In this document: one piece after another, positions 2,192 through 56,200 of the stretch
How positions within the stretch are numbered: position 1 is the stretch's first letter
How the letters are laid out: each line of letters begins with the position of its first letter
Notes under the pieces: generated by a model
The model's input: the letters and a program-made list of their open reading frames with translations, nothing else
What the model was told of the DNA's origin: nothing
The model's database searches: none
Made by a program: the position numbers and the translations under genes
Virus record (IMG/VR): IMGVR_UViG_3300009502_000041
Coordinates: 1 to 64,000 of that record
Origin: a virus
DNA length: 64,000 nucleotides
Reading direction: 5' to 3' (one strand)

Positions 2192-2749
2192 TTAAATATT
2201 GATTAAAATTTCTTTCGGATTAAAAATACCTCTAATCATAACACTTCGTGTTCCATCATACATATAATCTTTAGGATTATCTAAAACATCATCCAATGTT
2301 TCATGTAGCAATATTCTAAGTCCATCTTCAAGAATATGGTTATTTGTCATAGTCGTTAAGTCCTGAGCCATCGCAGGACTCCAAGATAACATAATTCGCC
2401 TATTTGGTGAAAAATCTATTTCGTCATAAATAACAGGACTAATACTTGCACCATTTTTTACTGGTGTTGTAAACGATTTTACGTCCCACGTTAGTGGTGA
2501 TAGATAAATTTCATATAAATAAACCTTTCCAGTTAATTTAGTATCTTCTTTTACCGATATGGTTACAGAATCATAAATATTTTCATCCACATCTTTCATT
2601 GAAGGGGTGTCAATTATTATAAGTTCTTTTACATCGTTAAATTCTTCTGTGTGATAGAGAAGAATGTCTTTTATTCTTTCCAAACCCTTCGATTTGATAT
2701 TACCGTCCGAAATTTCGGATAAATCTGAAATAAATTCTTTTATTTTCAT
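2192..2749 (-). CDS. hypothetical protein, 185 aa
   Basis: Unrecognised protein of mixed alpha/beta character. The N-terminus MKIKEFISDLSEISDG is helical; the middle has alternating hydrophobic strands (VTISVKEDTKLTGKVYLYEI). The C-terminal half contains RRIMLSWSPAMAQDLTTM and DGTRSVMIRGIFNPKEI. No signal peptide or membrane segment. Its start directly abuts the stop of the upstream gene at 2750, suggesting translational coupling in the early operon. Confidence 0.65.
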   Translation of the reverse strand: MKIKEFISDLSEISDGNIKSKGLERIKDILLYHTEEFNDVKELIIIDTPSMKDVDENIYDSVTISVKEDTKLTGKVYLYEIYLSPLTWDVKSFTTPVKNGASISPVIYDEIDFSPNRRIMLSWSPAMAQDLTTMTNNHILEDGLRILLHETLDDVLDNPKDYMYDGTRSVMIRGIFNPKEILINI

Positions 2750-3373
2750 TTATTTAATTTTTAATAGTTTACATATATAATGAAATTCATTGATGGATTT
2801 GCATTCACCATGATATTTTTCTTGATCGTTTATTGCTATCCAAATTAATGGTGGTTCTCCAACACATTGAAGATAACCAACTTTACTTTCTTTCTTTCCA
2901 AAAACCCCATGCGAAACAGTTTCTTCCCATCCTTCGGCTTCTATTTCTTCTTTGGTAAGATAAGAGGTTCGTAGATGTCCACTTTCTAATAGTTCTAAGT
3001 AGTGATGTAATTTTAAATATACTGGATAATCTATACTTACCTTTACCCAGTTTTCATCATAAGTTAAATCGGTTCTAATAATATCGTCAACACAATGACT
3101 TATAGCACTTATTATTTCTTGTACTTCACATTCATATCCAACCCTCAAGTCAGAAATTTCAGGGATAAAATAGGTGTCCATCGTTTTTATATTTTCATTA
3201 ATATTATCTTCAGGTATAATATAACTAAGCTCGCTTTGAAATAATTCAGCAACATTTCCTTTGTAAAGCCCATTTAAACCTTCCAATAACCCTAATTTAC
3301 GCCATCTTTCTGTGGTTTCTTCTTTTAATTTCCTGAGTTGTTCTATGCCAACATTTTTCTCATTTTTTTTCAT
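2750..3373 (-). CDS. hypothetical protein, 207 aa
   Basis: Unrecognised soluble protein with a charged N-terminal helix (KNVGIEQLRKLKEETTERW) and a C-terminal half with GYLQCVGEPPLIWIAINDQ. It overlaps the end of the 100-aa upstream gene by 4 nt (ATGA-type overlap) and abuts the next gene, so all three are probably translated as a coupled set. No catalytic motif seen. Confidence 0.65.
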   Translation of the reverse strand: MKKNEKNVGIEQLRKLKEETTERWRKLGLLEGLNGLYKGNVAELFQSELSYIIPEDNINENIKTMDTYFIPEISDLRVGYECEVQEIISAISHCVDDIIRTDLTYDENWVKVSIDYPVYLKLHHYLELLESGHLRTSYLTKEEIEAEGWEETVSHGVFGKKESKVGYLQCVGEPPLIWIAINDQEKYHGECKSINEFHYICKLLKIK

Positions 3374-3672
3374 TTTAAGCTCTTTAAAGCGTTTAATATT
3401 TCATCCTCGTTCATCGTATCCAGATTATCAACAATGCCCGTCATTTCGGCTATTTTGTTGCTTAACTCATCTCCAAAGCTTGTGTTTGAGTTTAATAATT
3501 CTTCAATTTTAGTAAGCGCAAATCTAGCTTGGCTGCCGTGTTCATCTGCTGCAATCATTGAGATATTGCCCATGTATTCAACATAGTTATTATCGTTTGC
3601 ATAAAACTTTAATATTGGCTCAATTAACAACACTATGTTTTGATATTGTTCAATACTATTCGTCGTCATCAT
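3370..3672 (-). CDS. hypothetical protein, 100 aa
   Basis: Mostly helical, acidic protein (MMTTNSIEQYQNIVLLIEPI at the start, ending LNALKSLK). It overlaps the upstream KTSC gene by 17 nt and the downstream gene by 4 nt. Both overlaps are typical of a compact early phage operon. No family recognised. Confidence 0.6.
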   Translation of the reverse strand: MMTTNSIEQYQNIVLLIEPILKFYANDNNYVEYMGNISMIAADEHGSQARFALTKIEELLNSNTSFGDELSNKIAEMTGIVDNLDTMNEDEILNALKSLK

Positions 3673-5854: not shown

Positions 5855-6616
5855 ATGGCTTTTCCAAAAAAAATAAAATATACTTTAGATACCAATCCCC
5901 CTAAGATTGGTACTGAATATCTTAAATATGGGTTTGATAGAATTGAGGAATTAATGTGTGAAGCCGATACCAAAACCAAATATCTCCCAAGAACCATTTT
6001 ACTTGAAGATTTAGATCAAGCTCTTTTTGATTATGTTAATAATGAAATGAAAGTTGTTATTGACGGTAATGCACTGTCTGTCATCTACTTAGATAACGAT
6101 AGATGGGGTGAACTGAGCAAGACGTGGAAATTAATGGACGGAGACCATAATATCCCAACTCCATATGTTACAGTAAGACGCACCGAAAAACAAGCAGGTA
6201 CTAGACTTGGTACTAAGTATCGTATTGCACAGGGGCGTAAGTTCAGATATATGGATGTGCCAATTCTTGATAACGGTGAGGTTATATATCTAAGATTTAA
6301 AATGCCTGAGCCAACGAATGTTGATTTAACATATGAAGTGGTGTTATTTACAAAATACAGGGTTGATGTTAACACGTATGACGAGCAAGTACTTAAGAAT
6401 TTTGCTTCTCGTCAAGAATACCTAGTAATTAAAGGCAATCCAGTTCCACTAGTATTTGACAATTTTGCTGAGGCAAATTCTATTGAGAATATTGATGGTG
6501 ATAGATTTTTTGTGTCAAAATATACCATAAAATTACTTGGGTTTATTCAAGACGAAAAAGAATTTGAAATCGTTAAAACAACAAGAAGACCAAAATTTGG
6601 TTACGTCATTAAATAA
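5855..6616 (+). CDS. putative virion structural protein, 253 aa
   Basis: Soluble protein with many beta strands (RYMDVPILDNGEVIYLRFKM; YTIKLLGFIQDEKEFEIV) and no signal peptide. The length, strand-rich composition and late-type promoter (5832-5839) suggest a neck, tail-completion or baseplate component, but I cannot name a family. It converges on the 6609-7922 gene with an 8-nt overlap of the two 3' ends and no visible terminator. Confidence 0.6.
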   Translation: MAFPKKIKYTLDTNPPKIGTEYLKYGFDRIEELMCEADTKTKYLPRTILLEDLDQALFDYVNNEMKVVIDGNALSVIYLDNDRWGELSKTWKLMDGDHNIPTPYVTVRRTEKQAGTRLGTKYRIAQGRKFRYMDVPILDNGEVIYLRFKMPEPTNVDLTYEVVLFTKYRVDVNTYDEQVLKNFASRQEYLVIKGNPVPLVFDNFAEANSIENIDGDRFFVSKYTIKLLGFIQDEKEFEIVKTTRRPKFGYVIK

Positions 6617-16006: not shown

Positions 16007-16047
16007 AAACAAACCACAAATAATTTATATATTTGTGGTTTGTTTTT
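16007..16047 (+). terminator. terminator after tail tube
   Basis: 15-bp perfect stem AAACAAACCACAAAT / ATTTGTGGTTTGTTT with a 9-nt AT loop and T run. The endonuclease ATG at 16055 lies just beyond it; the terminator excludes the longer upstream start at 16040 as a sensible choice. Confidence 0.85.
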
Positions 16048-16054
16048 ATATATT

Positions 16055-17551
16055 ATGAATAAATCAGAATTGCAAGAATATTTTTTATCAAATAATAAGT
16101 CTGGTCATAAAACCAACGAAAGGTGGTTGTCGGTTAACAATACCTTGTTGTATAACGAAATTGTTGATAAATATAAAAGCATTGTAGCCACTTTTAGTGA
16201 GAAAGTATGTCTATATGTTAATGGTTTAAATGATGTTCCTAAATGTCCTAATTGTGACAAGAACGTAAAATACAACGGTACTCTTCGTAAGGGATATAAT
16301 AAATATTGCTCGATTAAATGTCTAAATTCATCTGAAGAACATAAAAAATTGATAATAGCCTCTAATAATCTTAAGTACGGTGTTGATAGTCATAACCAAA
16401 CAGAGTTGGTTAAATATAAGAAGAAAGAAACTTCATTAAAAAATTACGGTGTTGATAATCCAATGAAGTGTAATAAAATTTCGTTAAAACAAAAAACAAC
16501 TTTACTTGATAAATATAACGTTACTAACCCAATGAACATTGGTTCGGTTATTAACAATAGAATAGACAATGTTATTAACGGAACTGAGCTTAATATTCAA
16601 AGAATGTTAAACAGGATAACAGATACAAGCATTAAATTCATAAAACACGATAGTAATAAAAATGTGTTTTTTCATTGTAATAAGTGTAATGCCGACTTTA
16701 ATTTAAATAGCAACTTATTAACATCAAGAATAGCAAACAATACGACAATATGTACAAACTGTAATAAAAACAAATCATATAGTAACATTTTGCTACAATT
16801 AACCACATTCTTAGATTCAATTAACATTAATTATATTATTAATGATAGGAAAATATTAAAAGGCAAAGAACTTGATATCTATCTTCCTGATCATAAATTA
16901 GGAATTGAGATTAATGGTTTGTATTGGCACAGCAATAAATATAAAAGAAATAATTATCATTTAAATAAAACAAAATTGTGTGATGCCAATGGCGTGAAAC
17001 TTTTACATTTTTTTGAAGATGAAATATTGGGTAAAATAGATGTTGTTAAAAAGATAATATTAAATAAAATCAATGATAAAATAGAAGAAAATATTTATAT
17101 TATTAAAGAAGTTAATAATATTGAGCTAACGAACAAATTTTTATTAGAAAACACTTTAAGTCTTAATGATTATTCTGACATTAAAATAGGTGCTTTTAAA
17201 AATGATAATTTAGTTTCGTTAATGCAATTTAATAAAAGTAAAAGCATTGACGAATATAAATTATCTGGATTAAATATAGAGAATTGTGCCGAACACACAT
17301 TAAGATATTTTATCGATAATTATTCGCCAAAATCAATAATAGTTTTTAATGACAGAAGGTTTTTAAATAATATTTATGAAAACTTGGGGTTTAAAATTAT
17401 TAAAAATACGAAACCTAAATATCGCTATATTATATCTGGAAAGTTTAAAAGGTATTTACGATCTGAATTGACTGAAACCGAATTAAAATCCAATGGTTTG
17501 CATAAAATTTATGATTGTGGTTCGGTTAAGATGAAATTAACAATTAATTAG
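16055..17551 (+). CDS. Vsr-like (EDxHD-type) homing endonuclease
   Basis: 498 aa from ATG at 16055. Same architecture as the 4043-5608 gene: N-terminal finger (KCPNCDKNVKYNG with YCSIKC), three YGVD/YNVTNP-type repeats at about 105-170, and a CNKC/CTNC zinc site near 210-245. The Vsr-like core at about 271-293 reads ELDIYLPDHKLGIEING then LYWHS, followed by HFFEDE. A GNAT-like C-terminal region and IYDCG near the end complete it. There is no RHH partner and no late-type box upstream, only the tube terminator, so expression may depend on read-through. It sits between the tube gene and a convergent nuclease gene, consistent with homing next to a conserved tail gene. Confidence 0.75.
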   Translation: MNKSELQEYFLSNNKSGHKTNERWLSVNNTLLYNEIVDKYKSIVATFSEKVCLYVNGLNDVPKCPNCDKNVKYNGTLRKGYNKYCSIKCLNSSEEHKKLIIASNNLKYGVDSHNQTELVKYKKKETSLKNYGVDNPMKCNKISLKQKTTLLDKYNVTNPMNIGSVINNRIDNVINGTELNIQRMLNRITDTSIKFIKHDSNKNVFFHCNKCNADFNLNSNLLTSRIANNTTICTNCNKNKSYSNILLQLTTFLDSININYIINDRKILKGKELDIYLPDHKLGIEINGLYWHSNKYKRNNYHLNKTKLCDANGVKLLHFFEDEILGKIDVVKKIILNKINDKIEENIYIIKEVNNIELTNKFLLENTLSLNDYSDIKIGAFKNDNLVSLMQFNKSKSIDEYKLSGLNIENCAEHTLRYFIDNYSPKSIIVFNDRRFLNNIYENLGFKIIKNTKPKYRYIISGKFKRYLRSELTETELKSNGLHKIYDCGSVKMKLTIN

Positions 17552-25751: not shown

Positions 25752-26022
25752 TTTTTAATTTTAATTGTTCCAATTGATATTGGAGATTTTCTTGTAATTT
25801 TTTCATCATTTCTGTATGTTCAAAAATTAATTCACTATCTGTAATATATTTTGGGTTTATACATTCTATTTTTATATTAGTAGATTGTATTGGTATTGAT
25901 ATGATTTCACCCTCAAACGTGCTGGGAATAATTTTTTTTGTTACATTTGTAACAAAACTAGGTATGTCTTCACTACGCACCCCTGCAATTCCAACATATA
26001 TTACAAATATTTTAGTTTCCAT
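25744..26022 (-). CDS. hypothetical protein, 92 aa
   Basis: Start ATG at 26022 (METKIFVIYVGIAGVRSEDI) lies inside the end of the upstream endonuclease gene. An earlier in-frame ATG at 26034 is less likely. It has an alpha/beta pattern and a C-terminal coiled helix (MMKKLQENLQYQLEQLKLK). It overlaps the next gene by 8 nt. No family recognised. Confidence 0.6.
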   Translation of the reverse strand: METKIFVIYVGIAGVRSEDIPSFVTNVTKKIIPSTFEGEIISIPIQSTNIKIECINPKYITDSELIFEHTEMMKKLQENLQYQLEQLKLKNE

Positions 26023-27190
26023 TTTTAGACTCACTTAATAATTGTTTATTTACTTTTATAAATAACTTACAGTCATCAATTAAATTATTTTTTTTCATGT
26101 AATTAAAATAATTATAATTATCATATTTAATAGTTGTAATATTAGGTATATTATTATCTGTAATATGTTTTTGAATAATTTCAAAATTTATTACTTCTTT
26201 AAATTTATTTAATAGATGTTTTAAATTATTTCTCATTACATACAAATAACAACCATAATTATTTATAAACAATTCATTATATGAATTACATTTATTAATT
26301 ACATTTATAGCCAATTCAACATTCCAACAAATACGATCTTTAATTAAGTGTTTAGTGTATTCATTCAATAATTTGGTTTTTTTTAATAGATTATATGTTT
26401 TAGGTTCATTAATAATAAAATCATGGTAATTATTATATTTTTCAATAATTTTAACAACATCGTTTACATTAAAAATATTATTTTTTATTAGTTGATATAA
26501 ATATTTATCATTAATTTCTAATATTTTATTTTCAGTAATATTTGAATTGGTAATATTATTAATTATATGTAAATTTGTTATAAGCTGTTGTTTTATGTCA
26601 AAAATATATTTTTTACTAACTTCATTAATAACAATTAAACTGATGTTATTATTTATACATAAATCAAATTTAATTTTATCTTTAATATTATCAGTGTGCC
26701 ACTGTTTACCATTGTATTCAAATCCTAAATTAAATTCTTCAATATAAATATCAATTTCATAAGGTTTTATTGCCTTTCGATTATTATATTCAACAATACA
26801 ATTAGGAAATAAAATTTTTAAAATTTCAAATAGTAATAATTGTGGGGTAGAGTAATGCTGTTTAATCATGTGTTTACAAACATCATCAACAATTTTTAAT
26901 TGTCGACACGTTGTATACGCACTTGGGTCAGCTAACTGAAATTCACCTCTGGTTTTATATTTTAATGCAACTTCTGTTAAATATTCTATATTTAAATCTC
27001 TACCCACCATTTTATTTCTTTTTCCAATTTGTTTTGAGATATGTAATACAGATTTTCTTAAATTAAGCTCATTCGCTTTATTAGAAATACCCTTTTCAGA
27101 CCTATTCAAAATAATTGATAATTCCAAATCACTTTTGTTTAAAAAATTAGCTTTTAGGTAATCAATATCCGTTTTTATCCAATAATTCAT
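26012..27190 (-). CDS. Vsr-like endonuclease with NGW/CSHM-type repeats
   Basis: 392 aa from ATG at 27190 (MNYWIKTDIDYLKANF), two nt after the PhoH stop; the longer frame would run into phoH. Residues about 10-60 have a helix-turn-helix-like segment (LSIILNRSEKGISNKANELN). One clear copy of the KYKTRGEF...SAYTTCRQL...VCKHM repeat follows at about 70-105. The nuclease core at about 143-166 has EIDIYIEEFNLGFEYNG then KQWHTD, a diverged form of the core in the three larger endonucleases. The C-terminal half contains two or three degenerate copies of the repeat (KYNNYHDF, KCNSYNELF). Its end overlaps the next gene by 11 nt. Probably a homing endonuclease inserted after phoH. Confidence 0.65.
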   Translation of the reverse strand: MNYWIKTDIDYLKANFLNKSDLELSIILNRSEKGISNKANELNLRKSVLHISKQIGKRNKMVGRDLNIEYLTEVALKYKTRGEFQLADPSAYTTCRQLKIVDDVCKHMIKQHYSTPQLLLFEILKILFPNCIVEYNNRKAIKPYEIDIYIEEFNLGFEYNGKQWHTDNIKDKIKFDLCINNNISLIVINEVSKKYIFDIKQQLITNLHIINNITNSNITENKILEINDKYLYQLIKNNIFNVNDVVKIIEKYNNYHDFIINEPKTYNLLKKTKLLNEYTKHLIKDRICWNVELAINVINKCNSYNELFINNYGCYLYVMRNNLKHLLNKFKEVINFEIIQKHITDNNIPNITTIKYDNYNYFNYMKKNNLIDDCKLFIKVNKQLLSESKNGN

Positions 27191-27191
27191 T

Positions 27192-27962
27192 TTATTTTCT
27201 TTTTTCTTTAAAGTACTCGTCAAATTTATTTTCAATAACATCAATAAGCGGATTTCTAACATTTTTATCAGCATTACTCATTTCAACAACACCAATATTT
27301 TCAGTATTATTAAACATTTTAATTAAATGTTTTAATGAACTGTCTGATTTATTTGTAATATCAATTTGATTGGTATCACCTAACATAATTAATTTACAAT
27401 TTTCCCCAATGCGAGTCATTGAGGTATGTGAATTATCCATCGTTATATTTTGTGCTTCATCACTGATTATTAAGCAATTATCTAAACTAACCCCACGCAT
27501 AAACGCAAGTGGTAATGGTTTAACAATTTCTTTTTCAATTAAAGATTTTAATGCAATGCTCCCAATTATTTTTTCCATGTTAATATAATAACTTAACATG
27601 AAGGGTGTTATTTTATCGTCCAAACTTCCTTTAAGATAACCTAAATCTTCTGATTTTAAAGTAGTTACCGATTTTACTAAATATATTTTATTATAACCAT
27701 TTTCTTTTTTTCTTAAAAGACTTAAAGCATATGCAACAGCAATATAAGTTTTACCAGAACCTGCTCTACCACCGCATATTGTAATTTCATTATTTTTTAT
27801 TGAGTTTATTAAATTTTTTTGACTGTCATTTTTTGCTGTTAATTTTATTTCTGTTTTTATAATTTTACTAATTTCTTCTTTAACCCTTGAAGAAACAATA
27901 TTACAATCTGTTGATGTTAGTTCCTGAAAATCCTTTTCTTCCTTAACTCTATCCCTGCCCAT
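27192..27962 (-). CDS. phoH: PhoH-like ATPase
   Basis: 256 aa. A PhoH-family P-loop ATPase: Walker A GGRAGSGKTY at about 60-69, the family segment KIYLVKSVTTLKSEDLGYLK, PLAFMRGVSLDNCLIISDEA with Walker B (ISDEAQN), MTRIGENCKLIMLGDTNQID (sensor motif) and a conserved R near the end. Widespread in large phages; a role in nucleic-acid metabolism under stress is suspected, not proven. First gene of a minus-strand operon ending with the sigma-like gene. No promoter motif of either class is obvious upstream. Confidence 0.9.
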   Translation of the reverse strand: MGRDRVKEEKDFQELTSTDCNIVSSRVKEEISKIIKTEIKLTAKNDSQKNLINSIKNNEITICGGRAGSGKTYIAVAYALSLLRKKENGYNKIYLVKSVTTLKSEDLGYLKGSLDDKITPFMLSYYINMEKIIGSIALKSLIEKEIVKPLPLAFMRGVSLDNCLIISDEAQNITMDNSHTSMTRIGENCKLIMLGDTNQIDITNKSDSSLKHLIKMFNNTENIGVVEMSNADKNVRNPLIDVIENKFDEYFKEKRK

Positions 27963-28118: not shown

Positions 28119-29048
28119 ATGGAAAATAATAAATTACCTCAAAGAGAAAGTGTTTCAGATGCATTAAAAAAATATAAAGAAGCGAATGATAAAGTATCTG
28201 ATGAATCACAATATGTAAATTCAGTTTCAAATGTCTCAAATGTTTCAATTCCAAAACCAACACAATTTAATCAACAGGATTTTGAAAAAACAATGACTAA
28301 AGAAACTGATCCAGATTTAATGACTTCTTATGAAGTAGTTAAATTACCATCAAAAGGCATGTTTTATTCACATGGTATTTCAGAAGTCAATGTTGAATAT
28401 ATGACTTCAAAAGACGAAGATTTATTAACTACACCATCATTAATTGAAAATGGAACTGTTTTAGATAAACTTTTAAAAAGAAAAATTAAAACTCAAGGAA
28501 TTAATATTGATGAATTATTAACGGGCGATAGAAATGCAATCATTTTATTTCTTCGTACTTCGAGTTATGGTTCAGACTATACAGTACAAGTAACTGACCC
28601 AAGATCAGGCATACCGTTTACAACTACAGTTAATTTATTAAAATTACAATATAAAGAACCTAAAGAATTTCCTGATGAATTTGGATATTTTTCTGTGGAA
28701 CTTCCTATGCGTAAAAAAACTGTTAAATTTAAATTATTAAGTTCAGGTGATGAAAATTTAATCTTTAAAAAAGCAGAATCAATTAAAGAAGTGTATAATG
28801 AAGAATTTAGCCAGTATAACACAATGAAATTAAAATCACACATTGTTGCGATTAATGAAAAGGCTGATAGGTCATATATTGACAGATTTATTGATGCAAT
28901 GCCTGCTTTAGATGCATATACCATTCGTAAAAAATTGATGGAAGTATCTCCAGATGTTGATATGAATTATGAATTTATGACCAATGATGGTTATAAATTT
29001 TACACAAGTTTAAGTGTTGGTGTAGATTTTTTTTTCCCTCAAATTTAG
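28119..29048 (+). CDS. baseplate/tail assembly chaperone (T4 gp26-type family), first part of a frameshift pair
   Basis: 309 aa. The segment LPSKGMFYSHGISEVNVEYM, then SKDEDLLTTPSLIENGTVLD, KLLKRKIKTQGINIDELLTG and DRNAIILFLRTSSYGSDY is the pattern of the T4-type baseplate family (gp26-like). It comprises a shell-like start, the E/D-DLL step, LL.G(D)RN and a R..SYG strand. In tailed phages a protein at this position, just before the tape measure, is a tape-measure chaperone. The 3' end holds a T9 run (29027-29035) where a -1 shift would join it to the 29066-29239 frame, giving about 373 aa. Confidence 0.7.
   Translation: MENNKLPQRESVSDALKKYKEANDKVSDESQYVNSVSNVSNVSIPKPTQFNQQDFEKTMTKETDPDLMTSYEVVKLPSKGMFYSHGISEVNVEYMTSKDEDLLTTPSLIENGTVLDKLLKRKIKTQGINIDELLTGDRNAIILFLRTSSYGSDYTVQVTDPRSGIPFTTTVNLLKLQYKEPKEFPDEFGYFSVELPMRKKTVKFKLLSSGDENLIFKKAESIKEVYNEEFSQYNTMKLKSHIVAINEKADRSYIDRFIDAMPALDAYTIRKKLMEVSPDVDMNYEFMTNDGYKFYTSLSVGVDFFFPQI
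29027..29036 (+). promoter_or_regulatory. putative -1 ribosomal frameshift site
   Basis: The zero frame reads GAT TTT TTT TTC CCT CAA ATT TAG. A one-base backward slip on T-TTT-TTC gives GAT TTT TTT TTT CCC TCA AAT TTA GCG, open through the downstream small gene to 29239. This mimics the G/GT-type frameshift conserved in tail chaperones upstream of the tape measure gene. The slip itself is inferred. Confidence 0.6.
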
Positions 29049-29065
29049 CGGGTGAGTATAAGAAG

Positions 29066-29239
29066 ATGGTTGATGAAGAAATCTTCATTTTAACTAAACA
29101 CGCCAAATTTCAAGCAGAATATATTGAGAAACTTCCAATATATCGTAGACGACATTTCTTATATTTACTTCAAAGAGAGAATGAAGAAGTAGAAAAAATG
29201 CAAGATAAAGCAAGAAGTAAGAATAATAGACCAAGGTAA
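29066..29239 (+). CDS. small tail assembly protein, frameshift extension or separate gene, 57 aa
   Basis: Frame open from just after the upstream TAG; ATG at 29066, stop at 29237-29239. The product has VDEEIFILTKHAKFQAEYI followed by KLPIYRRRHFLYLLQREN, a short helical motif like the C-terminal domains of tail chaperones (an acidic-aromatic helix and YRRRHFL). It may be made from its own ATG or as the C-terminal extension of the 309-aa protein, because the frame is open without a break back to the slip site. It ends directly against the antisense endonuclease stop. Confidence 0.6.
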   Translation: MVDEEIFILTKHAKFQAEYIEKLPIYRRRHFLYLLQRENEEVEKMQDKARSKNNRPR

Positions 29240-30847
29240 TTAGTTAATATTTAATATAAATTTACTTTTACCACAGTCAAATATTTTTAAATATTTATTA
29301 TTTATATCTTGTTCTTTGTCATTATTAAAAACCTGTATTTCTTTTTTATTATATCTCGTTAATCCACTTGATTTAAAATAGTAATAATCTGGCTTGGTAT
29401 TATTTAAAAAACTAAAACCGAGTTGTTTTAATAAACTATCATTTGAATATCTTCTATCCGAAAAAGTTATAATTGACTTTGGTTGATATGTTATAATAAA
29501 ATAATTTAATAACTTACTTGCACCATCAACTACATAATGATTGATCTTATTACAAATATTAATCATTTTATATTCATTCTTATTAGTTTTTTTAAATGAT
29601 ATTAAAAAAACTAATTCATCATCATTATATAACCCAAAATTTAATTTAGATTTAGTATAATCGTGAATATTATTTTCATTTAGAAATATTTTAGACTTAT
29701 CAGAATTAATATTATTAATAACACAATCCTCACTAAATATTTTACTGTTAAATATGTTTAATTTTGATTTAATTATACTTTTAACAATTTCTTTTTTAAA
29801 AACCCACTCATCTTCAAAAACATGTAATAATTGAATTTCTTTTTTCTCACATAATTCTGTTTTATTTAAATGGTATTTATTATTTTTATATATGCTAGAG
29901 TGCCAATATAAACCATCAAATTCAACTCCTAACCTGCTTTCAGGTATGTAAATATCAATTTCTTTATTATTTAAAATTGTTTTATTTTTTTCTGTTTTAA
30001 GTTTTAAATCATTTTCTATAAATGATTTAATTTCATCTTCTTTAAGCGAAGAATTATTTCCAACTGGATTGCATATTATACAAGGATTTTCACATTTTCC
30101 TAAAATAACTCTCCAATAAAATACTTTTTTATTTATGGTATATTCACTATGTATTTTACACTGATTTTTAATTAAATAATTATTGTTACCATTATTAGTA
30201 ATTATTACATCTTTACCCATAATGTCGGCAGATAATTTAATTGTATTTTTTGTTTGATTTATTATTGATTTATTTTTAATGTTAATATTTTTCATTGGGT
30301 GAGATACTCCGTAATTTTCAAATAAGGTCTTTTTTATTTTATTTTTAACCAAAGGAGATTGTGATGGATAATTAACACCTAAGTTTTTTTGATTTGTTTG
30401 AATTACTTTATTTTTAATTTCTTTTGATTGTGAAATATGTTCAACCCCATATTTTTTAATTAAACTATTTTTTATTTTGTTTTTAACGTCTGCATTTTGA
30501 AAAACACAATTGCTACCATATTTTATATTATTGGTGCTTTTTATTCTATTTTTAATATTATTATCATTATTAATACATTCATTTGAGCAATATCTAAAAT
30601 ATTTGTTATTGGTATTACCCCAATTTACATTCTTATTACAAACTGGGCATACTGGTATTTTTATTATATTATTTACATAATTAAATAATTTCTGTTTAAA
30701 ACTAAAATTATTTGAAAAATATAATAAATCATGTATATTTATTTCATCATAATTTATATTATGGTGTGATTTAATATAACTTTCACGACAAACATTAGGG
30801 TTTTTATTATTTTTAATTAAAAAAATAAATTCTTCTTTATTTATCAT
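29240..30847 (-). CDS. Vsr-like (EDxHD-type) homing endonuclease, antisense in tail cluster
   Basis: 535 aa. N-terminal fingers (VCPVCNKNVNWGN, YCSNEC), four YGV-type repeats (KYGSNCVFQ, KYGVEHISQS, NLGVNYPSQS, NYGVSHPMK) at about 105-200, and a CxxC site (CIICNP). The core at about 295-317 reads EIDIYIPESRLGVEFDG then LYWHS, followed by HVFEDEW. A GNAT-like C-terminal region follows, with FDCGKSKF near the end. Its sequence resembles the 4043-5608 gene most closely, even in EDEW...KKEIVKSIIKSKLN. It is inserted antisense between the tail chaperone and tape measure genes and is coupled to an RHH gene by an 11-nt overlap. Confidence 0.75.
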   Translation of the reverse strand: MINKEEFIFLIKNNKNPNVCRESYIKSHHNINYDEINIHDLLYFSNNFSFKQKLFNYVNNIIKIPVCPVCNKNVNWGNTNNKYFRYCSNECINNDNNIKNRIKSTNNIKYGSNCVFQNADVKNKIKNSLIKKYGVEHISQSKEIKNKVIQTNQKNLGVNYPSQSPLVKNKIKKTLFENYGVSHPMKNINIKNKSIINQTKNTIKLSADIMGKDVIITNNGNNNYLIKNQCKIHSEYTINKKVFYWRVILGKCENPCIICNPVGNNSSLKEDEIKSFIENDLKLKTEKNKTILNNKEIDIYIPESRLGVEFDGLYWHSSIYKNNKYHLNKTELCEKKEIQLLHVFEDEWVFKKEIVKSIIKSKLNIFNSKIFSEDCVINNINSDKSKIFLNENNIHDYTKSKLNFGLYNDDELVFLISFKKTNKNEYKMINICNKINHYVVDGASKLLNYFIITYQPKSIITFSDRRYSNDSLLKQLGFSFLNNTKPDYYYFKSSGLTRYNKKEIQVFNNDKEQDINNKYLKIFDCGKSKFILNIN

Positions 30848-31082: not shown

Positions 31083-33617
31083 ATGGCTAAAAATCCCACT
31101 TCTGTAAATGCTAATAATCTTAAACAAGTTAATGATGCACTAGAAAAACAAGCCAAATTATATTCCGATCTCGGTGCTAAAGAAGAAGCAATGTTTTTAA
31201 AACAGAAAATGGCTGAAAATAACAGAACGGCTATTAATAAACTTCTTAAAGAACAATTAGAATTAACTAATTTGATCGGTCCTAAGACCATTGAACAAGA
31301 AGAAACACTTGCAAAAATTCCTGCTCTATTAAATAAAATTACGAAAGAACACGCAAAATTAATTGCCGATTTAAAAACCGAAAATGAATTATTAAAATCT
31401 GGTGTTAAATACAGACAAATTGCTGTTGATTTAACAAGAGAATTGGGCAATCAATTAAAACTTGGGTGGACATATTTACAAGCATCAGATAAAGCAATTA
31501 AATCAACAATTCTTAATTTAGGAATGTCTGGTGCTAAAGCAGTCGAAATGAGATTATCTTTTGAGCAATCCGCACAATTTGCTGCAACTTTAGGTGCTAA
31601 TTTGGAAGATATTCAAAAAATAATGGAGGGTTTTGCTGATGAAACTGGTAGAGCACGTGTATTATCAGCTCAAATGGTTGAAGATGTTGTAACTATGGGT
31701 AAAGGTACTGGATTAGGTATTGAAAATGCAACTAAACTTGGTGCTCAATTTGAATATATGGGTGTTGATGTTAAAAATACAATGAATTTTGTACAAGGTG
31801 TTGTAGACACATCTGAAAGAATGGGTGTTAATACAACTAAAGTATTAAAAACAGTTAATGATAATTTTAAAAAATTAAGTACTTTTACTTTTCAGGGTGG
31901 TGTAAAGGCAATGGGTCAAATGGCAATGAATGCCGAAAAAACTAGAGTAAGTTTAGCTACCGCACTTAATGTTGCCGAAGCAACTAGAGGATTAGATCAA
32001 GTTATTGAATTAGGTGCTAATTTACAGGTAATGGGTGGTGAGTTTGCTAAAATGGACCCATTCCAATGGTTATATATGGCTCGTAATGAACCAGATAAAA
32101 TGACTGAAAAAATTTCTGAAATGACAAAGGGTATTTATACACTTAAAAAAAATTCAGATGGTACTTTTGAAAAATTTATAAGTCCTGAAGATAGAGATAG
32201 ACTTGCAAACGTTGCAAAATCATTAGGAATATCACAAGAAGAAATATCACAAATTGCACAAAGAAGACTTGATTTAAGTCTTTTAGATAAACAAACTGCT
32301 GGAATGGGTTTAACTAAACGTGAAAAAGAATTAATTCAAGGTGCATCCACAATGAATAGTGCCACAGGTAAATATCAAGTATTACTTGGTGGTCATATGC
32401 AAGATATTAGTACTTTAACTAAAGACCAAGCAGATGCATTTGCTAAAGAACAAGTATTACTTAAAGATAGAGCAAAAGAAGCCCAAACCTTTGATGAGGC
32501 ATTTAAAAACACCATAAACGCATTAAAAGCAGCATTATTGCCTTTGTTAGATAATGTGAATGGTTTATTAAAAACCGTTAGACCAATTTTTGATGCAATA
32601 AGTAAGTTTGGAACTGGTGGTGCGATTGCAACATTATTACTTGCGGGTCTTGCGTGGAAAGGCGTTGTTGGTGTTCTTGGTAGATTAACAAGTACTTTTG
32701 TTGAAAAAGGAGTTTCTACTGTAGGTGGTTCTATTGGTAGAATGTTTGGGAAAAACCCAGTATATGGGCCACAATTACCCCCACCCACAGCACCAGCAGG
32801 TGGTGGTACATTTGGGGGTGGTGCAGGTGGTACTGCATTAGGTATTGGTGCAGGTATTGGTGCTGCTGCTTTAGGTACTGGCGCAGGTGTTGGTGCTGCT
32901 GCTGCTGGTATTAGTTTATTGGCAGATGCAATGAGTAAATTGGATGTTGAAAAAGCAAAAATTTTACAAAACATAGTAATCACAATTGGTTTAATTACAG
33001 CAGCTGGAATTGCAGCTGCTACCACATTAATGTTTGCTGCACCATCAATAGTTGCTTTTGGCACAGCAGCGGGTGCAGCATCTATTGGTATTGGTATGTT
33101 AGCAATAGCATTAACACCGATTGGTCTTTCAGTTTTAGCAATAGGTGCAGGTATTGGTCTTGCAACAGCTGGAATTGGATATATGTTTACAGGAATTGGT
33201 AATTTAGTAACAGGAGTTGGTAATTTAGTTACATCATTTTCTAATTTAAAAATAAGTAGCGAAACACTTACAGCAATAAAAACAATTGCACTAAGTGCAC
33301 CAGATTTTAAAATAGTTGGTGATAGTTTTGCTAATATAAATGCAGCTTTATCTGGAAGTAAAGATGATTGGGTTGCTGTTCAAAATGCAATTACTGCAAT
33401 TAGCGGTGCAAACATATCTGGTGGTGGAATGTTGGCTGAATTAGCAAACCTATTGAGAAGTCCATTAAAAGTTGAATTCACCGATAAAAATGTTGCTATC
33501 GTAAGTAATATTACAATGGAAATAGATGGGGAGAAATTTATGCAAAAAGTATATAATATTAATACTTCAGTACAAAAACTTGCATCTGCTAGAAATGGAA
33601 CAGGTGGACAAGTGTAA
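31083..33617 (+). CDS. tail tape measure protein
   Basis: 844 aa. Sets tail length and forms the core inside the tube. The first 130 residues are charged coiled coil (DALEKQAKLYSDLGAKEEAM). Long helical segments follow, then a Gly/Ala-rich region (GAGIGAAALGTGAGVGAAAA) and several hydrophobic stretches (TIGLITAAGIAAATTLMFAA; LAIALTPIGLSVLAIGAGIG), the usual tape measure make-up. It is preceded by a chaperone pair, as expected. The length is moderate for a contractile phage. No lysozyme or peptidase domain seen. Confidence 0.8.
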   Translation: MAKNPTSVNANNLKQVNDALEKQAKLYSDLGAKEEAMFLKQKMAENNRTAINKLLKEQLELTNLIGPKTIEQEETLAKIPALLNKITKEHAKLIADLKTENELLKSGVKYRQIAVDLTRELGNQLKLGWTYLQASDKAIKSTILNLGMSGAKAVEMRLSFEQSAQFAATLGANLEDIQKIMEGFADETGRARVLSAQMVEDVVTMGKGTGLGIENATKLGAQFEYMGVDVKNTMNFVQGVVDTSERMGVNTTKVLKTVNDNFKKLSTFTFQGGVKAMGQMAMNAEKTRVSLATALNVAEATRGLDQVIELGANLQVMGGEFAKMDPFQWLYMARNEPDKMTEKISEMTKGIYTLKKNSDGTFEKFISPEDRDRLANVAKSLGISQEEISQIAQRRLDLSLLDKQTAGMGLTKREKELIQGASTMNSATGKYQVLLGGHMQDISTLTKDQADAFAKEQVLLKDRAKEAQTFDEAFKNTINALKAALLPLLDNVNGLLKTVRPIFDAISKFGTGGAIATLLLAGLAWKGVVGVLGRLTSTFVEKGVSTVGGSIGRMFGKNPVYGPQLPPPTAPAGGGTFGGGAGGTALGIGAGIGAAALGTGAGVGAAAAGISLLADAMSKLDVEKAKILQNIVITIGLITAAGIAAATTLMFAAPSIVAFGTAAGAASIGIGMLAIALTPIGLSVLAIGAGIGLATAGIGYMFTGIGNLVTGVGNLVTSFSNLKISSETLTAIKTIALSAPDFKIVGDSFANINAALSGSKDDWVAVQNAITAISGANISGGGMLAELANLLRSPLKVEFTDKNVAIVSNITMEIDGEKFMQKVYNINTSVQKLASARNGTGGQV

Positions 33618-37775: not shown

Positions 37776-38125
37776 ATGAAATACGATGAAATAGTTAAGC
37801 AGTTTCAAAGCAATATTTTTGAAACGTTAACAATAACAGAAGTAGCTTTGTTAAAAAATCTAAAGGTGCTTATTCTAGCGCATTTAAAAATGGTTGGTTT
37901 GATGAAGTTTGTTCACATATGATTATAAAACATAAACCAAAAAATTATTGGAATAAGGAAATGTGCACAAAAGAAGCGTTAAAATATAACGGCAGATACG
38001 AATTTCAAAAAAATTCAATGAGTGCTTATCGTTCGGCAATTTTAAATGGCTGGCTAGATGAGGTTTGTTCGCATATGGTAATTTCTGAAATCTATTTAAA
38101 AACACAAAAGAATAATGAAAGATAA
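37776..38125 (+). pseudogene. frameshifted remnant of NGW/CSHM-repeat nuclease family
   Basis: From ATG 37776 the first frame (MKYDEIVKQFQSNIF) loses the repeat pattern near 37830. A second frame continues with NNRSSFVKKSKGAYSSAF, then KNGWFDEVCSHM, and one more copy, ALKYNGRYEFQKNSMSAYRS then NGWLDEVCSHM. These are two copies of the 45-residue repeat of the GIY-YIG protein at 60033-61418. No nuclease core remains. It lies between baseplate and sugar genes. The second frame (from 37919) is still open and could make a 68-aa repeat-only protein. Confidence 0.7.
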
Positions 38126-38807
38126 AATAATAGTAGTTTTCTCTTCACATTTAGGAGAAGAATACGATAATAAATTCATTAAGCATATTAGTGATACCAT
38201 TGGAGTTAAGCATACAGCAATTGCTTACCCCAATTACAATCAATTTAGTTTACCTGAAGTCTACAATCTGGCAATAAAAGAAAATAATGCCAAAAATGTG
38301 ATATTTGTGTTCTGTCACAATGATCTAACCATACTCAGCCCTAATTGGGGAAGATTATTACTTACAAAATTTAATAGCACTAATTATTCGATTATTGGTG
38401 TTGCTGGTACTACATACCTTAACGAAAATGGTGTTTGGTGGCACGATAGATCAACAATGCATGGCGTTGTTGAACATACCGATGGAACAAACACATGGGT
38501 TAATGAATACTCAAAACCACGTGCTGGACATATCACTCCCGTTGTTTTAATTGATGGTTTATTTATGGCTGTTGATTGTAATAACATTGAACATCAATTT
38601 GATGAAGATTTTAAAGGCTTCCACCACTACGATACTTCGTTTTGTTTACCTAATGCAATTGCTGGCGTAAACATTGGTGTAACCACCGATATAAGAATTT
38701 TACACCAATCAGTGGGTATGACAAATGACCAATGGGAATTAAATAGGATACAATTAGTAGAAAAATATAAAAACGAATTACCAATTTCAATTAATGATTT
38801 TAATTAA
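38115..38807 (+). CDS. glycosyltransferase-like protein (StrF/GT2-like)
   Basis: 230 aa. The N-terminal strand IIVVFSSHLGEEYDNKFI, the segment VIFVFCHNDLTILSPNWGRL with the ND/ED loop, GVAGTTYLNENGVWW, and the later IDGLFMAVDCNN resemble the GT-A-like StrF family (Glyco_tranf_2_5). It starts 10 nt before the end of the repeat remnant. First gene of the glycosylation island. Confidence 0.65.
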   Translation: MKDKIIVVFSSHLGEEYDNKFIKHISDTIGVKHTAIAYPNYNQFSLPEVYNLAIKENNAKNVIFVFCHNDLTILSPNWGRLLLTKFNSTNYSIIGVAGTTYLNENGVWWHDRSTMHGVVEHTDGTNTWVNEYSKPRAGHITPVVLIDGLFMAVDCNNIEHQFDEDFKGFHHYDTSFCLPNAIAGVNIGVTTDIRILHQSVGMTNDQWELNRIQLVEKYKNELPISINDFN

Positions 38808-38813
38808 AAATTT

Positions 38814-39446
38814 ATGATTAAAGTAGATAAAATAGATGGCGGATTACCAATAAGCATTATTGTACCTCTAAGTAAAAGCAGAAAAGACTTTTTTGAGCAC
38901 ATGGTATTACCGCTAATTGAAGCAAATGATGTTAATGAAATTATTGTTAATGATGATGAGGGACGTGCACCTAAAAAAAGAAATGCAGGATTTAAAAAAT
39001 CAACTCAGCCATTCATACTGTTTGTAGATGATGATATTCTACTACCAAGTAATTATGCATCAACATTATACAAAACTTTAATGAAAAATCCCGATGTTGA
39101 TTTTGTATATACTGGGTATAATGGCATTGTGTTACATCCCGAATCACACCCAATAGGAAGAAATTTTCAAATTCCACCAATTGAATTTAGTATTAACGCT
39201 TTAAGACAAGGAAATTATATTTCGACAATGACATTGATGCGCAGAGAAGTATTTCCAATGTTTGACGAAAATTTAAAAAGACTACAAGACTGGGACATGT
39301 TTTTAACTATCTGTAAAAATGGTGGTAAAGGCATTTTAGTGCCGAATTTAACCTTTTATGCATTCTACCTTGATTCGGGTATTACTTCTAATGATAATAG
39401 TGAAATTGATGCTCTAAATGCAATAAGAATTAAACATCAAATTTAA
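38814..39446 (+). CDS. family 2 glycosyltransferase
   Basis: 210 aa. GT-A signatures: ISIIVPLSKSRKDFFEHMVL, NEIIVNDDEGRAPKKRNAGF, then PFILFVDDDILLPSNYASTL with the DDD metal site (about 64-66). The LQDWDMFLTICKNGGKGILV segment is the usual acceptor-side helix (WD motif). Compact, no membrane segment. Acceptor unknown. Confidence 0.8.
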   Translation: MIKVDKIDGGLPISIIVPLSKSRKDFFEHMVLPLIEANDVNEIIVNDDEGRAPKKRNAGFKKSTQPFILFVDDDILLPSNYASTLYKTLMKNPDVDFVYTGYNGIVLHPESHPIGRNFQIPPIEFSINALRQGNYISTMTLMRREVFPMFDENLKRLQDWDMFLTICKNGGKGILVPNLTFYAFYLDSGITSNDNSEIDALNAIRIKHQI

Positions 39447-39454
39447 GTATTTAT
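39446..39454 (+). promoter_or_regulatory. putative late promoter inside glycosylation island
   Basis: AGTATTTAT, ending five nt before a possible ATG at 39459. A transcript from it would miss that ATG and favour the in-frame start at 39543. Confidence 0.45.
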
Positions 39455-39542
39455 TTTAATGAAGAAACAAAACATTAAAATTAAAACGATAATAAAAAAA
39501 AGAATTGAAAATAATAATATTTTTTTTATTGGGAATAAAAAA

Positions 39543-40649
39543 ATGAATGAAAGAGATTTGAGAAGAATAAATGGTGGGAGTAATAATCTTAAATCATTAT
39601 CTTGTAATGAAAAGCAAAATAATGATTTAAGACAAATAAATTCACCAATAGAACCAGAAAAATTAATATTAAAAACTGTATCAAAATATAGTTTATTGAC
39701 CAATAAAACCGCATTTAAATCAGGTTTAACTCTTAAGACCGCACCCAAATCGGTTATTCCTGATAAAGAAATGAGTAATTTCATTACATCAGAAGCAACA
39801 TCCCGTGATGGTAGAAGAAATACAACAAATAACTTATCTATCGACCATTCTACTTCGTTGAGTCGTGACGAAAGAAGAACAGGATATAATGTTCAAACGT
39901 TATTAAATAACAGTATATATCAAATTAAAGCATTTGTTGATTATGATGTTGTGATATGTATCCCTTCTTATAATAGATACGAAAAGGTTAAAAGATTGAT
40001 ATCTCAATTTTATTCACAAACAACAAAATATAGATTTAAAATAATATTGTTAAATGATGGATCAACAGATAATTCATATAATGATTTAATAAAAGAATTT
40101 CCACAAATCACATATTTAAGCAATAAAACCCCAAACGGTAAAACAATGCATTGGTATTGTTATAATCAAATGTGGAGTTATTTAAAGAACATTGAATATT
40201 ATACCGTATTGCAAATGGACGATGATTTCATATTATCAAAAAATTTTTTAAATAATATTCTTGATTTATATTTTAAATTAAAACAAGAAAATAATACAAT
40301 ATTAGCAATTTCCCCTCATTTATGGTCGTTTAATAAAAAAAGTAATCATGAAATGTGGTGGGATAAAAAAGATTTTGTTGATGGAATTGCGTTAATTGAT
40401 GAATCTGTAATTTCCTCAATGAAATATGAAATGAAAAAAGTTGATGTTGTAATGGTAAGTAAACCGGGCATACCCGTTCGTACATGGATACAAATATCCG
40501 AAGCAATTGTGAAAATGGGCGGAATTATATATAGAACACAGAATTCATTAGTATATCATGATGGTAATGATGATTCAAAGTTACATGGCGATGTTAGAAA
40601 AAAGGGCAAAAATGGGGTTTATACACAAAAATATATCGAAAAACTATGA
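39543..40649 (+). CDS. family 2 glycosyltransferase with N-terminal extension
   Basis: 368 aa from ATG 39543 (MNERDLRRINGGSNNL, preceded by GGGAAT); an ATG at 39459 would add 28 residues but lies too close to the late-type element. The first 135 residues are polar and basic with repeated SRDxRR motifs (TSRDGRRNTT, LSRDERRTGY). The GT-A domain follows: VVICIPSYNRYEKVKRLI, ILLNDGSTDNSYNDL, LQMDDDFILSKNFLNNIL (DDD metal site), and MWWDKKDFVDG. The basic lead may anchor the enzyme to an acceptor. Overlaps the next gene by 4 nt. Confidence 0.75.
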   Translation: MNERDLRRINGGSNNLKSLSCNEKQNNDLRQINSPIEPEKLILKTVSKYSLLTNKTAFKSGLTLKTAPKSVIPDKEMSNFITSEATSRDGRRNTTNNLSIDHSTSLSRDERRTGYNVQTLLNNSIYQIKAFVDYDVVICIPSYNRYEKVKRLISQFYSQTTKYRFKIILLNDGSTDNSYNDLIKEFPQITYLSNKTPNGKTMHWYCYNQMWSYLKNIEYYTVLQMDDDFILSKNFLNNILDLYFKLKQENNTILAISPHLWSFNKKSNHEMWWDKKDFVDGIALIDESVISSMKYEMKKVDVVMVSKPGIPVRTWIQISEAIVKMGGIIYRTQNSLVYHDGNDDSKLHGDVRKKGKNGVYTQKYIEKL

Positions 40650-53225: not shown

Positions 53226-56200
53226 ATGTCAACATTTCGAAACTATTTTTTAAAGAATAATACTTTAATAGATAATAATCTAACAAATTCTTCACAGAAT
53301 CCAGTGTGTGAAATCTCATACGGGACTTATAATAAGCAAGTTAGCAGATTTATTTTTGATGTTGATTTAAGTAATTTACAAGATAAAATTGCAAATGGTT
53401 TTATTAACCCAAATAGAATTGTTAAACATGTATTGCATATGACCAATACAATTAGTGGTGCAGAACAATATGTTGGCAAAAAATCGTATTCGTTAAGTAT
53501 TGATAGAGCAACTAGTTTTAATTTAGAAGTTTTTAATGTTAATGAGGATTGGGATGAAGGGGGTGGTTATGATTTTATTTATAATGATAGCCAATTATTG
53601 GATTCTACGGTATATCCACAAGCATCAAATTGGTTTAGCAGAAAAACCGCAGATACATGGTTAACGGCTGGAGCATATTTTAGTGGTAATACTGAAATAA
53701 TTGGAACACAAAGATTCGAAACTGGTGGTGAGAATCTTGAAATAGATGTTACTGATTATATTAATCGAAGATTATTATATGGTAATATTTATACTGGCAC
53801 TACTAATTATACAGGTACTACTAACTATACTGGTGAAACTACGGGAACTACTGGTTATACAGGAACTACTGGTTATACAGGAACTACTGGTTATACAGCC
53901 ACGACATTTGGATTAGGTATTAAGTTCACAGATGTTTATGAACAACTCGATCCTGAATTTAGACAAGCAGTTGCGTTTTATACAAAACATACAAATACTT
54001 TTTATGAACCATACGTAGAGACAATTATTGATGATACAATCACTGACGATAGAAATTATTTTTATTTGGATAAAGATAATGATTTATATTTATATGCAAA
54101 TGCAGGACAGTCACAACAAAATGTTATTGTAAATCAAGTTAATATATATGATAATGAAGATATGTTACTTGGTAGTTTATCAGGTAACTCAATAGTTAAT
54201 GTAAGTAAAGGTGTTTATAAAATAACGTTAAACATTGATTCACAATCATATCCAGATGCCGTTATTTTTAGGGATGAGTGGATTATAACTATTAATAATA
54301 AAGAGATCACACATAACGGTGAATTTTATTTAATATCTCAGGATAAATATTTTACCTTTAATCAATCAAACCAAATTGATTTTAATAACTATTTTTTCTA
54401 TTTCTGGGGAATTGGGGAAAAGGAAAATATTAGAGCAGGTGCGGTTAAAAAAATTAAATTAACAATAAAAGAATTGTATTCAAACCAAGATAGTTTTTTA
54501 CCATTAGAAATTGAATATCGTTTATTCACAACAGTTGGAAAAAAATACGAAATTGATATAATTCCGTTTACTCTTACAAATAGAACTAATACTGGATATG
54601 AGTTTAGTCTTGATACTTCGTGGTTAATTCCCCAAGACTATTATTTACAAATTAGAATGAAAAATGGTGATTATTATGAAAATAAGCAAACACTATCGTT
54701 TACAATTGTAAGTGACGGTATTTTTGGCAATTTATCACATAAAATAACCACAACAAAAGCACCTAAAACAACCACCAGTACATCAACAAGTACTAGCACC
54801 AGTACCAGTACATCAACAAGCACTAGTACTAGCACCAGTACCAGTACATCTACAAGCACCAGTACATCTACAAGTACTAGTACATCTACCAGTACAAGTA
54901 CCACAACTAGTACAAGCACCACAACTAGTACATCTACTAGTACAAGCACCACAACTAGTAGTACAACCACGATAGCGCCAATACTTAATCCATTAACATT
55001 GTCTTTTGACAGTATTTTAAACGCTAATTTATTAATTGGTGGGAATTCATCGGATGTTAATGTGTGGAATACATTTTTTGATTTACCCACTAACGGTAAT
55101 TCGTTTGTAATTGCAACGGTAAGTGGAAATAGTGTAACTTTGCTTGGGGGAAACAATATTCATTTAAGAGATTCATTATTCTATGTAAATACTGTTCAAG
55201 GTAATACAACTTTAGTATCGATTGTTGATAGTTCATGTATTATTTCATCAGGAAATCAAGGTTTTATGTGTTGTGTTTCATTAACCACAATAAGTTTACC
55301 TTTATTAATTTCGGATAATGGACATTTTCTTTATGGGTGTACTTCCTTAACAACCGTTGATTTACCAAAACTGACCAATTCGGGAATATTTGGTTTTGGG
55401 TTTTGCACTTCATTAACATCAATTAATTTACCAAGTTTAATTACAACAGGAGATTATTGTTTTTATAATAGTACTGGTTTATATACTGTTAATTTACCAT
55501 TTTGTGTTAATTTGGGTAGTACCACTGGAAATGACTATGTATTTGGCGGAATTAGTGGAAGAGCTATTACACTTTCCGTTCCTCCAGCACTAATGACGTG
55601 TAATAATGGAAATCCAGATGGAGATATACAAGATTTCCTGTTTAATAATAATTCATCAATAATTTCCCCAGTAATATCTTTAAGTTTTAATAATATTACA
55701 AATGCCGATTTATTAATTGGAGGGAGTTCGTTAGATGTTAATGTTTGGAATACATTTTTTGATTTACCAAATAATGGAAATCCTTTTATTTCTGTGAGTG
55801 TTAGTGGAAACACTGTTGAATTATTTGGAGGAGAAGGTATTTTTCTTAAAGATTCATTATTTGATGATGCTGGAAGATATGGAACGAATTTATTATCTTT
55901 TATAGATTATGGAAGTATTATGAGCACTGGTTATGATTGTTTTGGGGCTGATAATAATGGGGGATGTCCTAATTTAATCACAGTGGTTCTACCAAGTGTT
56001 GCAACACTTGGTAATTATTGTTTTTTGGGGTGTTTTTCCTTAACAACCGTTGATTTACCAAGTTTGATTGTCGCAGGTCAAGGGAGTTTCCAACAATGTT
56101 CAAGTTTAATATCTATTAATTTTCCAAGTTTAATTAATATTAAAGACTATTGTTTTTATGGTTGTACATCATTAATAAATATCAATATACCTGCTTGTAT

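Follow-up and report, generated by a model that had tools for sequence, protein, structure and literature searches.

The gene that begins at position 28119 of the window (the whole 64-kb stretch of virus DNA analysed here) very probably involves a change of reading frame close to its 3' end, at a long run of T, ahead of a probable tape measure gene. The locus raises the question of whether this gene makes one protein or two, by which route the second would be made, and whether its relatives use the same route. The features on which the argument depends were the following.

28119..29048, + strand: putative short form of a tail assembly chaperone (TAC-N), 309 aa, zero frame; PF12322, phrog_150 and AlphaFold2 (AF2) model
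29027..29038, + strand: T9CCC slippery run, present as GATTTTTTTTTCCC in 46 of the 54 other clade members
29027..29033, + strand: first in-frame heptamer, U UUU UUU; read from the sequence
29030..29036, + strand: second in-frame heptamer, U UUU UUC; jumbo-phage −1 homologues use the identical heptamer
29046..29048, + strand: zero-frame stop TAG; ends 13 nt past the slip in the eight clade members first examined
29036..29239, + strand: predicted −1 extension, TAC-C/T-like domain, 67 aa plus stop; profile match, codon constraint and AF2 model
29066..29239, + strand: 57-aa ATG open reading frame (ORF) lying inside the extension; clade member L034 has ATA for this ATG

The 309-aa protein matched the PF12322 (T4_baseplate) family with an E-value of 6.4e-13 and 49.3 bits against a cut-off of 24.5, i.e., above the family threshold, and it also matched phrog_150. 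Both T4 gp26 (E 8.8e-64) and T4 gp51 (E 3.9e-52) belong to PF12322. We read these two as the tail assembly chaperone (TAC) genes meant by Vladimirov et al. 2022, since the title of that paper and the family match agree. An AlphaFold2 model of the core, built on a 66-row alignment, had a pLDDT of 88.8. Its best VIA-align scores, which were middling, were to the HK97 TAC (2ob9, Z 5.6), YqbN (3klu, Z 5.4), which we take to be a TAC-type prophage protein, and 5ir0 (Z 4.5); all rows below scored Z 3.1 or less. The predicted core fold is thus suggested to be nearest to known TAC structures, at middling Z. The initial annotation had proposed a gp26-type chaperone, and the PF12322 match, with HK97 TAC and YqbN as the top fold rows, bears this out. 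Judged by its profile matches, 28119-29048 is a TAC of the T4 gp26/gp51 family, and the phage that carries it is contractile-tailed and probably a jumbo phage.

The gene ends in GTA GAT TTT TTT TTC CCT CAA ATT TAG, read in the zero frame (28119-29048) as ...GVDFFFPQI*. Two overlapping in-frame heptamers of the form X XXY YYZ (U UUU UUU and U UUU UUC) lie ahead of the zero-frame stop. The 309-aa frame and the T9CCC run are where they had been reported, but the frame does not end at the run itself: the stop falls just after it, three codons beyond TTC. In the whole 64-kb window, which has a G+C content of 29%, this is the one run of at least nine T on the + strand. An in-frame T TTT TTY occurred at 12 places in the 19,445 codons of the window's ATG ORFs of at least 100 aa, and the two sites in the chaperone gene were the only ones within six codons of a stop.

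Between 28997 and 29239 the −1 frame stays open. A slip at T TTT TTC (29030-29036) would join DFFF to PSNLAGEYKKMVDEE, with 67 aa following the junction and spanning the 57-aa ORF; the fused reading ...GVDFFF continues as PSNLAGEYKKMVDEEIFILTKHAKFQAEYIEKLPIYRRRHFLYLLQRENEEVEKMQDKARSKNNRPR, and the predicted fusion (TAC-NC) would total 373 aa. A slip at either heptamer (29027-29033 or 29030-29036) would yield the identical fusion protein. The initial annotation had claimed that slipping back on T-TTT-TTC opens a continuous frame through the 57-aa gene, and this was found to be so; its coordinates and junction peptide were also correct.

We consider it very probable that programmed −1 ribosomal slippage on 29027-29036 makes a 373-aa long form beside the 309-aa short form. 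Most ribosomes would end at the TAG at 29046 and release the short form, while a minority would step back by one base on U UUU UUU UUC (29027-29036), bypass the TAG and gain 67 residues. The sequences themselves show the site, the open frame, the constraint on its codons, its conservation, the family and the order of the genes; slippage itself, its origin in the ribosome and not the polymerase, its rate and the role in assembly are inferred. If the system works like lambda gpG/gpGT, the tape measure protein would be covered by a large number of short forms and a small number of long ones, tail tube subunits would be brought in by the extension, and neither form would stay in the finished tail. 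The window shares with lambda G/GT a short chaperone, a −1 frameshift (here a predicted one) near the 3' end, a C-terminal extension and a tape measure downstream. It differs in that its slippery site is a U run and its core is about three times longer than the HK97 TAC; the likeness is drawn from the arrangement and the suggested HK97-TAC-like fold.

Conservation of the site was assessed in a dedicated scan, which gave 54 other distinct clade sequences with a readable site, from IMG/VR and one Bacteroidota metagenome-assembled contig. The −1 frame was open in all 54, and none of them lacked an in-frame U UUU UUY heptamer. The run was T9 in 46 sequences and T8 in the other eight, the latter being GAC TTT TTT TTC (n = 5), GAT TTT TTT TCC (n = 2) and GAT TTT TTT TCT (n = 1). 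Three sequences (L239/L240 and L285) kept only the first heptamer, U UUU UUU.

These run lengths bear on the strongest alternative, that RNA polymerase slips on the T9 run and that some transcripts carry U10 and encode the same fusion without ribosomal frameshifting. A run of nine A/T is the reported condition for polymerase slippage in bacteria, where such runs have been reported to slip (PMC5009743), and the chaperone gene holds the sole T9 of the window's + strand, a length kept by most of the clade. The eight T8 members, however, vary in arrangement and each retains an in-frame heptamer, and the homologous −1 sites of jumbo phages hold just T6 before C. A conserved run of at least nine A/T is thus not a property of the clade (T8 in 8/54). 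Since the T8 members keep the heptamer though their run is shorter, ribosomal slippage is favoured, and we regard the polymerase explanation as unlikely. As the sole mechanism, polymerase slippage was rejected on the T8 clade members; at T9, transcriptional slippage could contribute. The junction peptide FFFPSNLAGEYK is identical for a slip at either heptamer or for polymerase slippage to U10, and DFFFPSNLAGEYK is the fusion peptide common to all routes, so mass spectrometry alone cannot decide the mechanism.

Several results bear on whether the −1 frame is translated. A profile of the extension, trained without the window's clade, scored 28.0 bits (E 4.8e-8) in the −1 frame of the window and at most 1.4 bits in the other two frames. 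In the window and the seven clade members tested, the −1 frame scored 21–33 bits, and the other frames scored close to zero. Between the slip and the ATG, the −1 codons of eight clade members showed 65 synonymous and 14 non-synonymous differences, and codon position 2 never changed. No start codon was present in this stretch in any of the eight. The AF2 model of the extension is a helical hairpin (pLDDT 88.8). Comparison of the extension with PHROGs and Pfam returned no family of known function, and a Foldseek search returned nothing useful.

The same data speak to the reading in which the 57-aa ORF is an independent gene starting at ATG 29066 and no fusion is made. That ATG is present in the window and in six of the seven relatives examined, and phage annotations usually treat the homologous segment as a hypothetical gene in its own right. 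Against this, conservation in the −1 frame extends over the ten codons that precede the ATG, none of them a start codon, L034 has ATA in place of the ATG, and relatives with a +1 arrangement (see below) hold the homologous domain without that ATG. We therefore consider an independent gene very improbable and rejected it on the −1 constraint upstream of the ATG. The small gene of the initial annotation does lie within the −1 frame but, judging from these codons and from the ATA of L034, it is the inside of the extension and not a gene of its own.

It is scarcely credible that the break in the frame reflects decay of the gene or a mistake made in sequencing or assembly: homopolymers do attract indel errors and one relative has a zero-frame fusion, but the same break recurs in the 54 other clade sequences, which come from many assemblies, the zero-frame stop lies 13 nt past the slip in the eight examined closely, and cultured phages show homologous breaks. 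The relative in question, L292 (51% identical and of the same clade; 2501-3600), carries core and extension in one zero frame (GAG TTT TTT TTG CCC), with one extra nucleotide near the run and the former TAG now in the +1 frame. This fusion may be genuine, possibly with the logic of the frames reversed, or it may be a homopolymer error.

A downstream stimulatory structure is common for programmed −1 frameshifts, though not obligatory. No significant conserved stimulatory RNA fold was found 3' of the site (z −0.51 in the window, mixed values in relatives, weak covariation), and the best predicted stem begins about 30 nt from the slip site. The related L007 has a stable hairpin at 5921-5951, about 30 nt 3' of the slip (60-nt z −3.7), which the window and the related L033 do not have; at such a distance it does not readily qualify as a stimulator.

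Downstream of the chaperone gene, and elsewhere in the window, the following genes were relevant.

31083..33617, + strand: probable tape measure protein, 844 aa; similar to an L007 ORF and to the immuto tape measure
29240-30847, − strand: homing endonuclease-like gene; phrog_3339, E 2e-101; absent at this place in L007 and L033
4043-5623, − strand: homing endonuclease of the same phrog_3339 family; E 1e-109
16040-17551, + strand: homing endonuclease of the same phrog_3339 family; E 1e-73

The 844-aa ORF at 31083 matched no Pfam family. It shares 71% identity over 543 aa with the ORF that directly follows the extension in L007, and it matched the annotated tape measure of immuto weakly (E 2e-4 in a single comparison). 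On these similarities, 31083..33617 is a probable tape measure protein. In L007 and L033, the tape measure-like gene starts about 45 nt past the extension. The gap of 1843 nt between extension and tape measure in the window is attributed to an insertion, because a homing endonuclease gene sits between them which L007 and L033 do not have. The three phrog_3339 genes imply that the phage carries at least three homing endonuclease copies in 64 kb. The chaperone gene precedes the tape measure-like gene in the window, in the order of tail genes, and in relatives the tape measure gene comes directly after it. The idea of a GT-like extension ahead of the tape measure agrees with this gene order, with the −1 coding constraint and with the 54 clade relatives.

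Among known systems, two published accounts that cite Vladimirov et al. 2022 (Virology 566:9) describe TAC genes in T4-like phages, some with a short and a longer, fused gene and no frameshift, and also poly-T −1 signals in TAC-N genes of T4-like phages (PMC10885494, PMC12846349). T4 gp26/gp51 and the window share the PF12322 family and short and long chaperone forms, which in the window are predicted products. In T4, however, the two forms are two genes on opposite strands, whereas the window has one gene with a predicted frameshift. The two-gene arrangement was not seen in L007, the nearest longer relative (327 kb), where the core profile had one match, or in the window's own record of 74 kb, possibly incomplete, where the window protein finds one match; tandem short and long genes do exist in L216 (see below). 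The C-terminus of T4 gp51 matched the extension profile weakly, 27 of 2000 shuffles being as good, which is only suggestive of gp51 ending in a fused extension. Vandenendeviridae and Andersonviridae (Adele, PMC12846349) share with the window, where the shift is predicted, a poly-T −1 TAC shift and an extension running through a mis-annotated small gene; the likeness is one of arrangement, and their site, an invariant GTTTTT at the TAC-N 3' end, has a different sequence from that of the window.

We then compared homologues outside the clade. NNT TTT TTC with a homologous −1 extension was found in the jumbo phages GAP32, CBB, RaK2, 121Q, Munch, BF, XaC1, Kaldavass, XbC2, Atu_ph07, Phosso, PA5oct and SCTP-2. 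XacN1 and RAS14 carry T TTT TTT instead, and the LR756511 group (L110-L118) has NNT TTT TTC TTC CC, again in the −1 direction. In about 150 relatives, the homologous extension lies in the +1 frame. These include the nearest core homologues outside the clade, namely LR756508, the Microcystis phage Mel-JY01, the Flavobacterium phage immuto and about 140 further IMG/VR loci; SP-15, LIS04 and GXN1 likewise carry the homologous extension in the +1 frame. The +1 relatives join homologous core and extension at the same Phe-Phe junction as the window. Whether homologues keep the site thus has a divided answer: all 54 other clade sequences keep the heptamer, but outside the clade most of the relatives found use +1.

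The 133 non-redundant +1 sites included TTT TTT TGG (104), TTT TTT TAC (12), TTC TTT TGG (7) and TTT CTT TGG (4), the main form being V TTT TTT TGG CC or TAC CC, where V is not T. TTT CTT TGG resembles the CUU U of prfB. A −2 rather than a +1 shift in these relatives was disfavoured, because TTC TTT TGG re-pairs well for +1 only. Before TTT TTT at the TGG and TAC sites of the +1 relatives, T was found in 0 of 116 cases, compared with 8 of 53 for TTT TTT elsewhere (p 6e-5, with related phages treated as independent). When the C/T-ending codons of those genes, 70% of which end in T, served as the background instead, p was 2e-33; this comparison was set aside as too strong, because T is also scarce before TTT TTT elsewhere (8/53). 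The simplest reading is that the +1 phages avoid the −1 heptamer. Every −1 site has T before the run, which partly follows from the search definition. A different arrangement was seen in L216 (G004 contig, 54818-56784), where short and long PF12322-like genes stand in tandem, corresponding to the two-gene solution of T4.

In TAC genes of different phages, −1, −2 or +1 shifts are reported to occur (PMC5009743). What the present comparison adds is a contrast in predicted direction inside one homologous family, and we claim on the strength of these aligned sites that frameshift direction differs within this chaperone family. Trees of 69 and 86 rows were built with the junction columns left out. 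The best trees need three changes of direction, or two once L006 and L103, both long rows, are omitted; branches with good support call for a minimum of two, and no bootstrap tree had only one. The window's clade grouped with the large +1 clade (support 100/93 and 98/97). AU tests did not reject a single −1 clade (p 0.074, 0.31 and 0.158), and we therefore grade a reversal of direction in the window's lineage, read from these phylogenies, as likely only. We lean slightly towards a fuller account in which direction has reversed more than once at the same Phe-Phe junction with the fused protein kept, the phase of the U run sets the direction, and the window's clade is a −1 branch whose origin lies among +1 relatives. 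A −1 heptamer would then be created by a T standing immediately ahead of TTT TT(T/C), while in +1 sites no T would precede the TTT TTT that leads into TGG or TAC.

A frameshifted TAC is of a kind already known from lambda G/GT and gp26-type TACs; the switch of direction within the family is the interesting part. The members of the family form a natural series (−1, +1, tandem duplicates and a possible zero-frame fusion) for studying how frameshift direction evolves while the product stays constant, and the way in which +1 phages avoid a T ahead of TTT TTT gives a testable indication of selection against unwanted −1 slippage. The annotation of a tail morphogenesis gene is also corrected for a widespread group of large phages, in whose records the long chaperone is absent or listed as an orphan 'hypothetical protein'.

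Three further observations were made in the window. A 420-aa ORF at 26012-27274 (− strand), without a Pfam match, overlaps the end of a PhoH-like gene (27192-27962). In L007 the PhoH-like gene extends to 272 aa, with the next gene immediately after it, so the shorter gene of the window seems to have received an insertion at its 3' end. Glycosyltransferase genes (PF13712, PF00535) stand in a run at 38115-40649 (+ strand), after the baseplate genes. The gene at 53226-57410 (+ strand) encodes 1394 aa that include BspA-type leucine-rich repeats (PF13306, E 2e-43), and its product is possibly a tail fibre or surface protein.
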